A DNA stretch of 64,000 nucleotides from Bacteroidales bacterium (GTDB taxonomy: Bacteria; Bacteroidota; Bacteroidia; Bacteroidales; Tenuifilaceae): NCBI GenBank assembly GCA_013376985.1, contig JACABB010000001.1:3560-67559 (forward strand), given 5' to 3'. Position 1 is the stretch's first letter, and each line of letters opens with the position of its first letter. The notes under the pieces are model-generated. The model saw nothing but the letters and a program-made list of their open reading frames with translations. It ran no database searches and was not told the DNA's origin. The position numbers and the translations under genes are program-made. Positions 8,248-12,806 of this stretch are shown piece after piece.

Positions 8248-9351
8248 ATGGATGATGTAAATAAGAATCGGGTTCTGGTTTGCCCTCTTGCTTGGGGTCT
8301 TGGGCATGCAAGTCGCATGATTCCTATTATCTCCAAATTCCAACAATCCGATTTTGAGGTAATTGCTGCAGGGGATGAATTGCAAATGCATTACATTTCC
8401 ACCAAATTCCCTAACATCAAAATATTACATTTCCCCTCTTTTAAAGTAAAATTAGCTAGGGGTTCTAATCAATTGCTACCAATACTAAGAATTGCATCAA
8501 TACTTCCGTATCATATAATAAAAGAGCATTATACGATAAAAAAGATCGTACGAGATCATCAAATTAATATAATTATTTCCGATAATCGCTATGGATTATG
8601 GTGTAGAGGCATTAAATCGATATTTATTACCCATCAATTAAGAGTGCTATTCCCTAAACCATTTAGATTGCTAGAACCTATTGGTGCTTGGTTCGTTCGG
8701 CTAATCATAAAAAAATTCACCTTTTGCTGGATTCCCGATTATAATGATGATAGAAACCTATCGGGAAATCTCTCTCATCCAAAGAGCCTTCCATCCAATG
8801 TAAGATATATCGGTTTACTTTCTCGATTTCAAGGAATTAATGTTGATGTTGAAACTCATAAATGGGATTTAGTTGGAATTGCCTCGGGGCCATCACCACA
8901 AAGAGAGATTTTTATTGATTTGATGGGCAAATTATCAAAGCGGTATAATCTTAAGGCTATTATCATTAAAGGAAATCCAAAGGAAGGTACTAATATCTTT
9001 GAAGATAAAGGCATCTATTATGCAGGACATTTAAACGATATTGATTTTGCTAATACTGTATTATCAACTAAATATTTGATAACCAGATCCGGATACAGCA
9101 CAATTATGGATTTAGCCTTTCTTGGCATAAGTGGATTAATTATTCCCACTCCTGGTCAAACCGAACAAGAATATCTTGCAGAATATCTATCAAGAAAGGA
9201 ATTATTCGTAACCTGTAAGCAACTTGATATAGAGAAAATCGATATAACAATTGCACAAGTATCGCATAAACCCATCAATAATTCAAATAAACTCTTTCAA
9301 AATGCTTTTTTCGAATTATTCGATCAATATAAATGTGATTTTAAGAATTAA
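8248..9351 (+). CDS. MJ1255-like glycosyltransferase
   Basis: A 367-residue GT-B-type glycosyltransferase. The N-terminal motif LAWGLGHASRMIPI is the glycine-rich nucleotide/acceptor loop found in MJ1255-like and MurG-like enzymes. The C-terminal half has YAGHLNDIDFANTVLSTKYLITRSGYSTIMDLAFLG, which resembles the UDP-sugar-binding part of family 28, and GQTEQEYLAEYL near the end. No signal peptide or clear membrane span is seen, so it probably acts at the cytoplasmic face. It starts immediately after the radical SAM stop codon. Acceptor and sugar are not predictable. Confidence 0.8.
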   Translation: MDDVNKNRVLVCPLAWGLGHASRMIPIISKFQQSDFEVIAAGDELQMHYISTKFPNIKILHFPSFKVKLARGSNQLLPILRIASILPYHIIKEHYTIKKIVRDHQINIIISDNRYGLWCRGIKSIFITHQLRVLFPKPFRLLEPIGAWFVRLIIKKFTFCWIPDYNDDRNLSGNLSHPKSLPSNVRYIGLLSRFQGINVDVETHKWDLVGIASGPSPQREIFIDLMGKLSKRYNLKAIIIKGNPKEGTNIFEDKGIYYAGHLNDIDFANTVLSTKYLITRSGYSTIMDLAFLGISGLIIPTPGQTEQEYLAEYLSRKELFVTCKQLDIEKIDITIAQVSHKPINNSNKLFQNAFFELFDQYKCDFKN

Positions 9352-9354
9352 TCC

Positions 9355-9362
9355 TATATTTG
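9355..9362 (+). promoter_or_regulatory. -7 promoter element of the cysteine operon leader
   Basis: TATATTTG matches TAnnTTTG and begins 4 nt after the glycosyltransferase stop. The predicted transcription start is about 9368, roughly 17 nt before the leader ATG at 9386. No perfect -33 TTG is present. Confidence 0.6.
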
Positions 9363-9385
9363 ACAATATAAAACGATTCTAAATA

Positions 9386-9469
9386 ATGCAATTAAACAAT
9401 TTGAATATTAACTCTTGTTGTTGTTGGATAATTTACCAACAGGAAGGGTTATATTCAGTTTTTGCATGA
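9386..9469 (+). CDS. Leader peptide with three tandem Cys codons (27 aa)
   Basis: A short open frame ATG...TGA that reads NSCCCWII in its middle. The Cys codons are TGT TGT TGT at 9416-9424. It lies between a TATATTTG promoter and an intrinsic terminator, upstream of cysE and cysK/M. Runs of the regulatory amino acid in a leader peptide are the hallmark of ribosome-mediated transcription attenuation (trp, his and leu leaders; poly-Cys leaders are known in mycobacteria). The ribosome is expected to stall here when Cys-tRNA is scarce. The run sits inside a (TTG)n-like tract, so chance origin is possible. The exact fit of the flanking RNA structures argues against it. Confidence 0.72.
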   Translation: MQLNNLNINSCCCWIIYQQEGLYSVFA

Positions 9470-9519
9470 TAATAATTATAAAATAACACAAACCCTTCCA
9501 AGCCACGGAGGGGTTTTTT
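9422..9519 (+). promoter_or_regulatory. Cysteine-responsive transcription attenuator (antiterminator and terminator)
   Basis: Three mutually exclusive structures can be drawn. Hairpin 1:2 is TGTTGG (9422-9427) with CCAACA (9436-9441); its left arm includes the last Cys codon. Antiterminator 2:3 is GGAAGGGTT (9442-9450) with AACCCTTCC (9491-9499), a perfect 9-bp match. Terminator 3:4 is the same AACCCTTCC with GGAGGGGTT (9507-9515). A ribosome stalled on the Cys codons would cover to about 9438. That would disrupt 1:2 but leave 9442-9450 free to form the antiterminator, so cysE is transcribed. A ribosome running to the TGA at 9467 would hinder 2:3 and let the terminator form. The structures are seen in the sequence; the mechanism is inferred. 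Confidence 0.72.
9490..9519 (+). terminator. Intrinsic terminator in the cysE leader
   Basis: Stem AACCCTTCC / GGAGGGGTT (9 pairs, one G-U), loop AAGCCAC, then a run of six T (9514-9519). It lies before cysE rather than after a gene, 40 nt upstream of the ATG, as expected of an attenuator. Confidence 0.85.
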
Positions 9520-9558: not shown

Positions 9559-10353
9559 ATGGTAAGAAAATTAATCAGAATTACGGATACTGGAAATTCA
9601 AGTGAATTTCCAGTTAAGGCTGATGTGATATCGTTTACACAAAATTTGGCGATATCGCTTTTCCCAATTATTGAAGGTTCAAGGACAATACCACCGAGCT
9701 ATAGGAAACTAAAGAAAAGGTTTAAACGAATAGTAAAACCAGTATGTAAAGAGCATAATTTAACAAACGAGGAATTGGCTGATTCTTTTTTTAGTAACCT
9801 AAAAGGAATAAAAGAACTTCTTGATATTGATGCCCAATTTTTAGCGGCTAATGATCCCGCAGCAAGCGGTGTTGATGAAGTAATTATGGCTTATCCTGGG
9901 TTTTACGCGATACTCGTGTATAGAATTGCTCATTGTCTTGCAGAAATTGGGATTCCTATAATTCCACGAATCATGTCCGAGCATGCTCATTCACATACAG
10001 GAATTGATATTCACCCCAAAGCAACAATAGATTCTGAGTTCTTTATCGATCATGGGACAGGTATTGTTATTGGCGAAACATCAATAATAGGGAAAAGAGT
10101 GAAAATCTACCAAGGAGTAACCCTAGGAGCACTTAGCGTTAGCAAAGATAAGGCATCAACCAAGCGACATCCAACCATTGAGGATAATGTGATAATTTAT
10201 GCAGGAAGCACAATACTTGGAGGCGAAACGGTTATTGGTCATGATAGCGTAATTGGAGGGAATGTTTGGCTTACCGAAAGTGTTCCTGCATTTTCTATGG
10301 TATATCATGAGAGTAAAGTAGTTATCAAGGAAAGAAAAAATAATAATAAATAA
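9559..10353 (+). CDS. cysE: Serine O-acetyltransferase
   Basis: A 264-residue enzyme that makes O-acetylserine from serine and acetyl-CoA, the first step of cysteine synthesis. The N-terminal part is helical, with DPAASGVDEVIMAYPGFYAILVYRIAH. The C-terminal left-handed beta-helix of hexapeptide repeats has the catalytic region GIDIHPKATI, FFIDHGTGIVIGET and the KRHPTIEDNVIIYAG block. The layout fits the EpsC/CysE form common in Bacteroidota. cysK/M follows after 16 bp. Regulation is probably by the Cys-codon attenuator in the 190-nt leader. Confidence 0.92.
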   Translation: MVRKLIRITDTGNSSEFPVKADVISFTQNLAISLFPIIEGSRTIPPSYRKLKKRFKRIVKPVCKEHNLTNEELADSFFSNLKGIKELLDIDAQFLAANDPAASGVDEVIMAYPGFYAILVYRIAHCLAEIGIPIIPRIMSEHAHSHTGIDIHPKATIDSEFFIDHGTGIVIGETSIIGKRVKIYQGVTLGALSVSKDKASTKRHPTIEDNVIIYAGSTILGGETVIGHDSVIGGNVWLTESVPAFSMVYHESKVVIKERKNNNK

Positions 10354-10369
10354 TTAAAAAAGGACAACT

Positions 10370-11281
10370 ATGAAAGCAAATTCAATTTTAGAATCTATCG
10401 GTAGAACCCCGCATATTAGGTTAGCCAAACTATTTCCAAATCATGAAGTTTGGGTAAAGGATGAACGTCGAAATCCCGGTGGAAGCATCAAGGACCGTAT
10501 TGCTCTTGCTATGGTTGAAGATGCCGAAAAATCGGGATTATTAAAATCAGATGGTATTATTGTTGAGCCAACGTCTGGTAATACTGGAATAGGATTGGCC
10601 ATAGTTGGTGCAATAAAAGGGTATCGAGTGATTTTTACTATGCCGGAATCGATGTCTATAGAACGACGAAAACTGCTTAAGGCTTATGGGGCAGAACTTG
10701 TTTTAACTCCAAGGGAAAAGGGGATGAAAGGTGCTGTAGAGCAAGCAAAAGAAATAGTTTCAAATACTCCTAATTCTTGGATGCCAATGCAATTTGAGAA
10801 TGGATCAAATCCTGCTATCCACTACAGAACTACTGCAAAGGAAATATTTGAAGATTTTCCAAAAGGATTTGATTACTTAGTTTGTGGGGTTGGAACAGGT
10901 GGGCATATAACTGGGGTTGGAAAAGCGCTAAAAGAGCTATTCCCAAAAATTAGAATTATTGCCGTTGAACCAGCCGATTCGCCTGTTTTAAGTGGTGGAC
11001 AGCCAGGTCCACACCCAATTCAGGGAATTGGAGCAGGATTTATCCCAAAGAATTACTCTGCTGAACTTATTGATCAAATAGTGACAATTAGTAAACAAGA
11101 AGCTTTTGAGATGATAAACTTTTCGGCAAAAGTTGAGGGTATGCTCGCTGGTATATCAAGCAATGCGAATCTGGCTGCTTTGAAAAAGATATTAAATCAA
11201 ATACCAAAGAATAGCAAAGTTTTAACCTTCGCTTACGATAGCGGGGAAAGGTATCTTAGCGTTGAGGGAGTTGGGGATTAG
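10370..11281 (+). CDS. cysK: Cysteine synthase (O-acetylserine sulfhydrylase)
   Basis: A 303-residue PLP enzyme of the CysK/CysM group that condenses O-acetylserine with sulfide to give cysteine. The PLP lysine is Lys41 in NPGGSIKDR. The asparagine loop is [11 protein letters not shown], the phosphate-binding glycine loop is [12 protein letters not shown], and the C-terminal block is [12 protein letters not shown]. Together with cysE it forms a complete two-step pathway. Its stop codon TAG overlaps a GTG that opens a 29-codon membrane mini-gene. CysK and CysM cannot be told apart by sequence alone here. Confidence 0.92.
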
Positions 11282-11370
11282 TGGGTTATTTCTATGATGT
11301 TATCAATCTTTTGCTTATAGTTATTATTTTATATCTTAGCAATATCAAACTCAAATTTTATAGGCTATGA
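11281..11370 (+). CDS. 29-aa single-span membrane mini-protein, coupled to both neighbours
   Basis: A GTG-started frame of 29 codons plus stop. Its GTG shares the G of the cysK/M stop (TAGTG), and its TGA overlaps the ATG of the symporter (ATGA). The peptide is one hydrophobic helix, VINLLLIVIILYL, followed by a basic tail, KLKFYRL. Overlaps at both ends are typical of translational coupling. Some solute symporters are known to have tiny accessory membrane proteins encoded directly upstream, but I see no sequence family I can name. It could instead serve only to carry ribosomes to the symporter start. It is too short for automatic gene calls. Confidence 0.45.
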   Translation: MGYFYDVINLLLIVIILYLSNIKLKFYRL

Positions 11371-12806
11371 TAACAGTATTTGTCCTTTACCTTGTACTGG
11401 TTGTTGGTATTGCCATTTGGTCGGCACTGCGTGCTAAAACCCATGAAGATTATGTTATTGGTGGCAAAAAAATAGGTGGTGTTTCCTTAGCCCTTTCGGA
11501 ACGTGCTACAGGAGAATCAGCATGGCTAATTTTAGGCTTAACTGGCTATGCATTTACCAATGGGATAAGCGCAATTTGGGTGGCATTGGGATGTGTAATT
11601 GGTATTCTATTTATTTGGCTGGTAATGGCAAATCCTCTCCGTTTAGCCACGGAAAAAACAGGGGCAATGACTATTCCAAGCCTACTTGCTCGTAAGTTTC
11701 CTGGTACAGAGAAACCAATTGGTATACTATCATCATTAATTGTAGTTTTCTTTTTCCTCTTTTATATTGCTGCTCAGTTCAGCGGAGCTGGAAAGGTATT
11801 TCACGATACCTTTGGGCTAACCCCATTCTGGGGAATGGTGATTGGAGCAGGAATTGTCACCCTCTATACAGTACTTGGTGGATTTATCACTGTTGTTGCA
11901 ACAGATGTATTTCAGGCTGTTTTGATGATATTTACCCTTATTGTAATGCCTATTGTACTACTATTAATTCTTGCATCTAACAATATTAGTTTAGCATCAA
12001 AATTAACAGAGGCTGGTACTCAAATGACCTCTTTAACAGGTGGTGCAACAGGAACTGCTGCTGTACTTCTTGTACTTAACGGTCTTAGCTGGGCGTTGGG
12101 TTATACTGGGCAACCACAACTACTTGCCCGCATGATGGCTCTTCGTAACGCAAAGGATAGCAACACGGCACAATGGGTAGCCACAATATGGACTGTTGTT
12201 GCCTATGCGGGTGCTATTCTAATTGGTATTGCTGGTTATGCACTGATTAAAGGCGGTGTAGCGGGTATTGATACCGCCAAAGTAGCTAATGATTCGGAGC
12301 AGATTATGCCAGCATTGGTTGTTGGCCTAATGCAGCCTATTCTTGCAGGCATAATGCTTTCAGGAGCAGTATCTGCAATGATGTCTACGGCTTCATCTGA
12401 ACTGATTGTTTGCTCCTCATCCATGAGCGAAGATCTTTATTCCAATATAGCCCAAAAACCCATGAAGGGTTCAAAAATGCTACTACTTAACAAACTGCTT
12501 ACCCTTGGTGTTGGTTTGGTAGCAATTATTATGGTAATATTTATGAAGGATACCGTTTACAGCCTCGTATCCTATGCTTGGGCAGGAATTGGTTCATCAT
12601 TTGGACCAGCATTATTACTCCTTCTTTTCTGGAAACGATTCTCACGTGCAGGGCTTTACGCTTCGTTAATTTGTGGTACTCTGGGTGCTATTCTCTGGAA
12701 AACATTACTGATGGAACCCACAGGAATCTCAGAGAGGTTAGGTAGTTTTATTTTTGCTTTTGTAATGGCGGTGGTGGCTAGTTTGATTTGGCCGGAGAAA
12801 ATGTAA
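11367..12806 (+). CDS. Sodium:solute symporter, PutP-like
   Basis: A 479-residue polytopic membrane protein with about 13 hydrophobic helices and no signal peptide. The family pattern is clear: the N-terminal DYVIGGKKIGGVSLALSERATGESAWLILG, then AATGT...LSWALGYTGQPQLLARMMA, and ILSGAVSAMMSTASSELIVCSSS (the SxxSS sodium-site region of the SSS family). These proteins take up proline, pantothenate, sugars or other solutes with Na+. There is no promoter or terminator between cysK/M and this gene. It therefore probably belongs to the cysteine operon, which makes cysteine, cystine, serine or a sulfur compound a plausible substrate. That part is inference. Confidence 0.87.
   Translation: MITVFVLYLVLVVGIAIWSALRAKTHEDYVIGGKKIGGVSLALSERATGESAWLILGLTGYAFTNGISAIWVALGCVIGILFIWLVMANPLRLATEKTGAMTIPSLLARKFPGTEKPIGILSSLIVVFFFLFYIAAQFSGAGKVFHDTFGLTPFWGMVIGAGIVTLYTVLGGFITVVATDVFQAVLMIFTLIVMPIVLLLILASNNISLASKLTEAGTQMTSLTGGATGTAAVLLVLNGLSWALGYTGQPQLLARMMALRNAKDSNTAQWVATIWTVVAYAGAILIGIAGYALIKGGVAGIDTAKVANDSEQIMPALVVGLMQPILAGIMLSGAVSAMMSTASSELIVCSSSMSEDLYSNIAQKPMKGSKMLLLNKLLTLGVGLVAIIMVIFMKDTVYSLVSYAWAGIGSSFGPALLLLLFWKRFSRAGLYASLICGTLGAILWKTLLMEPTGISERLGSFIFAFVMAVVASLIWPEKM

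Follow-up and report, generated by a model that had tools for sequence, protein, structure and literature searches.

Amino acid-responsive attenuators of the trp and his type consist of a short ORF with codons for the amino acid of the pathway, a hairpin (1:2), an antiterminator (2:3) and a terminator (3:4), placed ahead of a biosynthetic operon. Cysteine-responsive attenuators with leaderless leader ORFs are reportedly the subject of a 2020 mycobacterial study by Canestrari, going by its title. The leader found in the window (the whole 64,000-nucleotide stretch of Bacteroidales DNA analysed here) resembles trp- and his-type attenuators in its ORF with tandem codons, its 1:2, 2:3 and 3:4 pairings and the biosynthetic operon downstream, and differs from them in its amino acid, cysteine, and its phylum, Bacteroidota.

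Cys leaders have been described for the cys operons of Mycobacterium and P. acnes and for cbs of B. longum (PMC1262725, available part), bearing out the statement in the initial annotation that poly-Cys leader ORFs are known in mycobacteria. According to the same part of that source, the mycobacterial leaders have no conserved terminator hairpins and Rho is suggested. The window leader shares with these actinobacterial examples a Cys-run leader peptide before cysteine genes; compared by description, it is unlike them in that an intrinsic terminator and an antiterminator are conserved in its type. The uORFC-8-2 motif of Rhodobacterales, reported exclusively before cysS, has two tandem Cys codons in its first stem, followed by an intrinsic terminator (PMC8632094, available part). 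Our leaders are like this motif in having a leader ORF with tandem Cys codons, an intrinsic terminator and the same proposed logic, and unlike it, again by description, in belonging to Bacteroidota, in lying before cysE, cysK and sulfur-assimilation genes and in having mostly at least three Cys codons; the window leader itself is upstream of cysE-cysK, not of the cysS by which the motif is defined.

In the same phylum, the authors of a Flavobacterium psychrophilum study report strong indications that leader peptides act in attenuation ahead of amino acid biosynthesis operons (PMC9723704); the available part of that paper names no cysteine leader, and "cysteine" occurs once in its main text, for a protease. 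Small ORFs reminiscent of leader peptides are mentioned for Bacteroidota in the available part of PMC7366714. A 2010 paper describes leader-peptide systems as demonstrated until then in Proteobacteria and Actinobacteria only, and itself adds Firmicutes (PMC2965389, available part). We found no Cys attenuator described in Bacteroidota in the literature searched, which excluded Lopatovskaya 2010 and all supplements (including Table S7 of PMC9723704), in agreement, within that scope, with the initial annotation, which knew of none. We consider it highly likely, on sequence analysis, that the window leader is a ribosome-mediated transcription attenuator sensing charged tRNA-Cys and controlling cysE-cysK.

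Anatomy of the cysE-cysK leader

The leader occupies positions 9355-9519 of the window, after a glycosyltransferase-like ORF (8248-9351, PF04101) that runs in the same direction. On re-reading the sequence, the coordinates given by the initial annotation for every element agreed base for base. The leader begins with TATATTTG (9355-9362, + strand), directly after the preceding stop codon as had been claimed; it resembles a -7 box of the Bacteroidota type, TAnnTTTG, and the promoter that it was said to be is putative, by consensus match only. The box ends 23 nt before the ATG of the leader ORF, MQLNNLNINSCCCWIIYQQEGLYSVFA, which has 27 codons from ATG to TGA (9386-9469 with the TGA, + strand; stop codon at 9467). 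Both this ORF and its tandem Cys codons TGT TGT TGT (TGTTGTTGT; 9416-9424, + strand), the proposed sensor, can be read in the sequence as initially reported, the former also having counterparts in the Cys-run leader ORFs of relatives and the latter being indicated by the start and stop codons of the Cys frame.

Hairpin 1:2 is predicted to fold across the Cys codons (9409-9451, + strand), pairing 9409-9416 with 9444-9451, 9418-9423 with 9437-9442 and 9425-9428 with 9432-9435. The hairpin at the last Cys codon described in the initial annotation is therefore present, and is longer than the 6 bp given there. Segment 2, GGAAGGGTT (9442-9450, + strand), would form the 5' strand of the antiterminator; as had been noticed, it is the exact reverse complement of AACCCTTCC at 9491-9499, the 3' strand of the antiterminator, which lies within segment 3, the terminator left arm (9490-9499, + strand). 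By its sequence, the antiterminator uses the left arm of the terminator and would be mutually exclusive with it. The predicted intrinsic terminator 3:4 (9490-9519, + strand), with a stem of 10 pairs at 9490-9516 and T6 at 9514-9519, stands between the leader ORF and cysE, where a terminator with U6 had been annotated. Segment 2 starts 20 nt past the first base of the last Cys codon and ends 16 nt before the leader stop.

Segment 2, in the window as in relatives, is also Shine-Dalgarno-like (GGAGG/GGAAGG) within the leader ORF. Bacteroidota ribosomes do not recognise Shine-Dalgarno sequences (PMC9976891, available part), and such a segment inside a leader ORF is perhaps tolerable where ribosomes ignore them.

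The first downstream gene, cysE (9559-10353, + strand), encodes an EpsC-type serine O-acetyltransferase of 264 aa that matches NF041874 at 150.7 bits (cut-off 150) and TIGR01172 with an E-value of 2e-45 and 154.5 bits, under the cut-off of 210.65 for the latter. It is separated by 16 nt from cysK (10370-11281, + strand), which encodes a cysteine synthase A of 303 aa (TIGR01139, 395.3 bits, cut-off 350.95). The operon downstream of the Cys leader is thus cysE-cysK, which by these profile matches makes cysteine; a terminator scan of 10300-11450 gave no terminator on the + strand.

Conservation and association with cysE

The initial annotation had proposed looking upstream of cysE in related Bacteroidales for conserved tandem Cys codons and for compensatory changes in the 2:3 and 3:4 stems. 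A CysE protein search placed the gene in 16 of 27 family genomes, its own included, and reading of the upstream DNA revealed a tandem-Cys leader ORF followed by a terminator at 14 of these 16 loci, counting the window. The two loci without a leader (L010 and L012) are from the same genus, and their CysE is 57% identical, approximately as close as in leader-bearing genera. One family leader has TGG TGT TGT as its Cys run (L008). The tandem Cys codons are retained, but the other residues of the peptide change from genus to genus (e.g., MSIMLQNTTCCCCWLPNQTEGVCLHQLK, MKRNHNIVCCTCCCQGNTWPQGALLCLG and MINTRNIALTCCWYCTVPHGGLAMC), so the Cys codons and the pairing are what is conserved.

At the order level, CysE was matched in 167 of 295 genomes, and the arrangement recurs at six of 27 newly sampled loci (L025, L026, L028, L031, L036 and L049). 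From a scan of named genome contigs the best 80 of 421 relatives were retained; Chitinophagaceae bacterium DXS (L062, MRGKFCCCCGVR) is one carrier among these, and Flavobacterium gelidilacus DSM 15343 (L119, MNLIICNTCCKMWKFPQRTSIA) is another. A further Cys run, at L042, was not counted as a leader; it sits in the preceding coding gene. Two loci titled Thermoflexus (L095) and Chloroflexi MAG (L098) carry a CysE that shares about 50% identity with that of the window, and their Cys leader comes with a terminator of opposite polarity (left arm GAGGGGC); these represent either mis-binning or a more distant occurrence.

Our scanner, which looks for three or more Cys within five codons of an ORF that has a start codon and no more than 65 codons and is followed by a terminator, was positive at 32 of 123 CysE loci in total. 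The 31-leader set used below comprises these positives minus two duplicates (L079 repeats L011, and L080 repeats L031) plus L008. Among non-redundant genes, a Cys leader with terminator precedes 30 of 116 cysE genes and none of the 441 other genes in these loci that encode 150 aa or more. The scanner is negative for 86 of the 116 CysE upstream regions, about three quarters, and misses at least one true case, L008. The position of the terminator in the gap after 8248-9351, in the direction of that ORF, would suit a terminator that merely ends transcription of the upstream glycosyltransferase gene, with the Cys ORF and the complement present by coincidence. We consider this extremely unlikely, given that the DNA upstream of the leader differs in relatives, that Cys leaders are confined to cysE in the comparison above, that segment 2 tracks its own terminator and that a gene-blind pattern falls on sulfur genes (see below).

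When other residues were substituted for Cys in the scanner, Leu gave 23 and Val six positives out of 116, with no other residue above three; we ascribe the Leu and Val counts to TGY repeats read in other frames. Of the 31 leaders, 30 have an ATG in the Cys frame and one (L002) has a GTG, partly by construction as the scanner required a Cys-frame start; an ATG is present in the Leu frame of four leaders and in the Val frame of four. Where no start codon was required, at the loci found by pattern, 12 of 13 have a Cys-frame ATG. Reading TGTTGTTGT in the Leu or Val frame is ruled out by the start codons.

Further Cys residues in some peptides (e.g., L149 and L239) would be in keeping with a small Cys-rich protein with its own function, such as metal or redox binding. 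This is almost inconceivable for peptides that share little between genera besides the Cys run, that are only 12-14 aa long in three cases (L062, L109 and L129) and whose stop codon lies 23-44 nt before the terminator in all 31 leaders. S-boxes and T-boxes control Cys and Met genes in Gram-positives, and an S-box does follow a Cys/Met leader at one locus (L197, below), as might be expected if another cysteine-responsive element (a T-box, an S-box or an unknown metabolite riboswitch) were at work and the ORF incidental. We regard that as highly unlikely; no Rfam family matched at gathering score anywhere in the window, and across families it is a Cys run in an open frame, together with base pairing, that is kept as other residues vary.

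The box upstream of the leader also recurs. Of the 31 leaders, 17 have an exact TAnnTTTG no more than 80 nt from the leader start, a number reached by none of 500 shuffles (mean 2.75). In seven leaders (L005-L009, L011 and L013) the box ends 4-5 nt before the ATG, and from the box-to-TSS distance their ORFs are candidates for leaderless translation. The spacing in the window argues against a leaderless ORF there.

Base pairing and the proposed switch

Folding was compared with dinucleotide shuffles, counted if they folded at least as well. The whole window leader has a z-score of -5.3 (0 of 200 shuffles as good), hairpin 1:2 of -3.4 (1 of 200), the 2:3 pairing of -3.2 (0 of 200) and the terminator of -3.9 (0 of 200); with the segment-2 region of the window shuffled against the terminator arm, 0 of 300 were as good. 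Taken individually, 24 of the 31 leaders have a 2:3 pairing that beats 95% of 300 shuffles and seven do not.

In an alignment of the 14 family leaders, window included, the terminator helix is 95.7% paired. Cells changed on both sides number 29 versus 10.4 in shuffles (0 of 500), and the covariation score is 0.353 versus 0.04-0.12 for slid partners. Two of the five measures in this test are not exceptional: both-side changes are found in seven of 20 predicted pairs (4.5 in shuffles, 25 of 500 reaching seven), and further pair types number 19 versus 18.7 (287 of 500). Compensatory changes are present in the 1:2 and 3:4 stems of this alignment. For the 2:3 stem, the answer comes from swap tests, according to which antiterminator complementarity tracks the terminator of each locus.

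In these tests the segment-2 region of each leader was paired with its own or with other loci's terminator arms. Over 24 representatives the pairing was -15.4 kcal/mol for own and -11.3 for swapped arms, and over the 12 divergent representatives alone -14.8 versus -9.4, with 0 of 20,000 permutations as good in either case. For the window region, its own arm comes only 11th of 24, CCCTTCC being common to many terminators; for the window arm, its own region comes second. Segment 2 and left arm change together, from GGAAGGGTT/AACCCTTCC in the window to CGAAGGG/CCCTTCG in L112, CAGAGG/CCTCTG in L119 and AGAGAGAA/TTCTCTCT in L062. The test was repeated on leaders found later, giving 9 of 20,000 permutations for seven from a DNA pattern without a segment-2 requirement and 0 of 20,000 for 12 from an RNA model; individually, 15 of 22 later leaders beat 95% of shuffles for the 2:3 pairing and seven do not. 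One pattern match with no sulfur gene in view (L246) fails the 2:3 test, 111 of 300 shuffles being as good, and was kept in the permutation. The permutation omitted near-duplicates (L242, L249 and L251), and the 2:3 test omitted three loci in which the terminator finder called no hairpin (L245, L247 and L248).

From the anatomy, conservation, covariation and gene association observed here we infer the translation, stalling, termination and cysteine response of the following model. Transcription would start just upstream of the leader and the leader ORF would be translated. When cysteinyl-tRNA is plentiful, the ribosome would clear the Cys codons and reach the stop at 9467; without translation, segment 2 would be held by hairpin 1:2. 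In either case the terminator at 9490-9519 would form and transcription would end before cysE. When cysteinyl-tRNA is scarce, the ribosome would stall at 9416-9424 and open hairpin 1:2, and the freed segment 2, clear of the ribosome, would pair with segment 3 (9491-9499) ahead of the synthesis of segment 4, preventing the terminator and allowing cysE-cysK to be transcribed.

In 26 of 31 leaders, the window among them, 12 nt or more separate the first base of the last Cys codon from the start of segment 2, which, given the footprint of a stalled ribosome, would stay free. A ribosome at the stop codon would mask segment 2 only marginally in the window. In equilibrium folding, antiterminator pairing is greater with a stalled ribosome than without one in 26 of 31 leaders (mean 0.73 vs. 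0.56), the window values of 0.69 and 0.64 being nearly equal. Also at equilibrium, the terminator forms in the full-length RNA whether or not a stalled ribosome is present (medians about 1.0 across the 31 leaders), and the switch would therefore have to be kinetic rather than an equilibrium one, as is usually argued for trp attenuation.

Equilibrium folding is thus not decisive here, which leaves some room, along with the mycobacterial precedent (PMC1262725, available part), for attenuation in which Rho or translation coupling, as has been suggested for the poly-Cys leaders of mycobacteria, takes the place of a 2:3 antiterminator. We think this very unlikely for leaders in which a strong intrinsic terminator with a U-tract is conserved and segment 2 matches the terminator left arm beyond chance. 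The attenuation logic for cysteine put forward in the initial annotation is supported by the conservation of the Cys codons, the compensatory changes, the terminator-tracking segment 2 and the association with sulfur genes, and the window leader, a real and conserved element, is very probably a cysteine attenuator.

Sulfur genes and further leaders in Bacteroidota

A gene-blind DNA pattern, TGTTGYTGYN{45,75}CCYTTCN{3,14}GARRGGNNTTTT, matched eight of 393 order genomes and 14 of 395 class genomes, with no match to the reversed control pattern in either set. By tblastn with the window CysE and CysK, seven of the order matches (window included) lie before cysE and one before cysK. Besides the window, the class matches comprise 13 loci, of which 11 precede genes for sulfite/nitrite reductase, peroxiredoxin, APS kinase or cysE. 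Sulfite/nitrite reductase-like genes follow seven of the 13, with Pfam NIR_SIR downstream at L239, L241, L245 and L250 and downstream genes 58-94% identical to that of L250 at L242, L249 and L251; peroxiredoxin follows L247 and L248, APS kinase L244 and cysE L240. The protein downstream of L243 had no Pfam or NCBIfam match at the thresholds used, and L246 is the unconvincing case. Having been modelled on terminators found in known cysE leaders, the pattern favours that type and misses others. It is narrow and matches only a small share of the class genomes, and each lineage has a leader before only some of its sulfur genes.

An RNA model built on the 14 family leaders (R1) adds leaders before cysE (L144, L145, L147, L159 and L218), cysK (L156, L165 and L169), an OsmC gene (L149) and, with Cys/Met leaders, metY (L183 and L197), as well as a leader whose terminator lies some 200 nt ahead of a carbonic anhydrase-like gene (L180). 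A MAFFT alignment of 22 diverse leaders (A3) was set aside with several terminators off by one base. R1 is not specific at the thresholds used. Its 14 matches in the window's own genome at E ≤ 10 include three before cysE, pheA-like and asnA genes, and no convincing leader was seen at five others (L133, L134, L135, L137 and L138), a count that excludes L136, L139 and four more matches. In the order it matched 87 of 393 genomes at E ≤ 0.01, with no recognisable leader at nine of 22 loci examined (L150, L151, L157, L161-L164, L166 and L168) or at most of 40 further places. In the phylum it matched 40 of 395 genomes at E ≤ 0.001, and roughly half of the 29 loci examined have a recognisable leader.

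Several metY loci carry more than one element. The gene encodes O-acetylhomoserine sulfhydrylase, identified by TIGR01326 at L183 and L197 and by eye at L219. Two tandem leader ORFs rich in Met and Cys, each with a terminator-like hairpin, precede it at L183 (1501-1900), and two tandem Met-rich leader ORFs, also each with a terminator-like hairpin, at L219 (minus strand). At L197 (1501-1930) a Cys/Met leader and terminator are followed by a SAM riboswitch (RF00162, 1676-1795, 75.6 bits), a second terminator-like hairpin and then metY, apparently an attenuator and a riboswitch in series.

We think it probable that the Cys-leader attenuators of Bacteroidota form a distributed sulfur regulon. In some lineages, each of the genes for cysE, cysK, sulfite/nitrite reductase, APS kinase, metY, OsmC protein and peroxiredoxin would have a Cys leader of its own, at times one with Met codons as well. 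Some metY genes would carry two leader attenuators in a row, or a Cys/Met attenuator and then a SAM riboswitch, with several sulfur signals read in series from one promoter.

Leaders for other amino acids were also noticed. In the window's own genome, outside the window, a poly-Asn leader (MMYQINNNLSNNNTTNNNWKHWEGIV) and terminator precede asnA (TIGR00669; G000:C23:49653-49785, L132), and Asn leaders precede asnA-like genes, named by eye, in four relatives (L153, L160, L198 and L230). We recognised no description of an Asn attenuator on asnA in a literature search for it. The same genome has a leader containing FFASYFYFYFYESRGLAIV with a terminator before a prephenate-dehydratase-like gene (G000:C2:4573-4754, L131), which was named by eye and had no NCBIfam match at a strict E-value. 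Val/Ile, His, Trp and Leu/Ile leader peptides with terminators lie in relatives before ilvD, ilvE, ilvA, hisG, trpE and leuA-like genes, again named by eye (L152, L154, L158, L167, L171, L173-L178, L184, L194, L196, L201, L203, L204, L206 and L235). Judging from these sequences, leader-peptide attenuation looks general in the phylum.

Bacteroidota are important in the gut, in soil and in the sea. If the reading is true, it adds cysteine, with an intrinsic terminator and before cysE and cysK, many short leader ORFs could be annotated, and there would be a directly testable model for how Bacteroidota control their cysteine synthesis and sulfur assimilation. The more surprising part is the breadth over Bacteroidota sulfur genes and the stacked Cys, Met and SAM arrangements. 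Our findings suggest that regulation by leader peptides is a general strategy in this phylum too, although its ribosomes ignore Shine-Dalgarno sequences.
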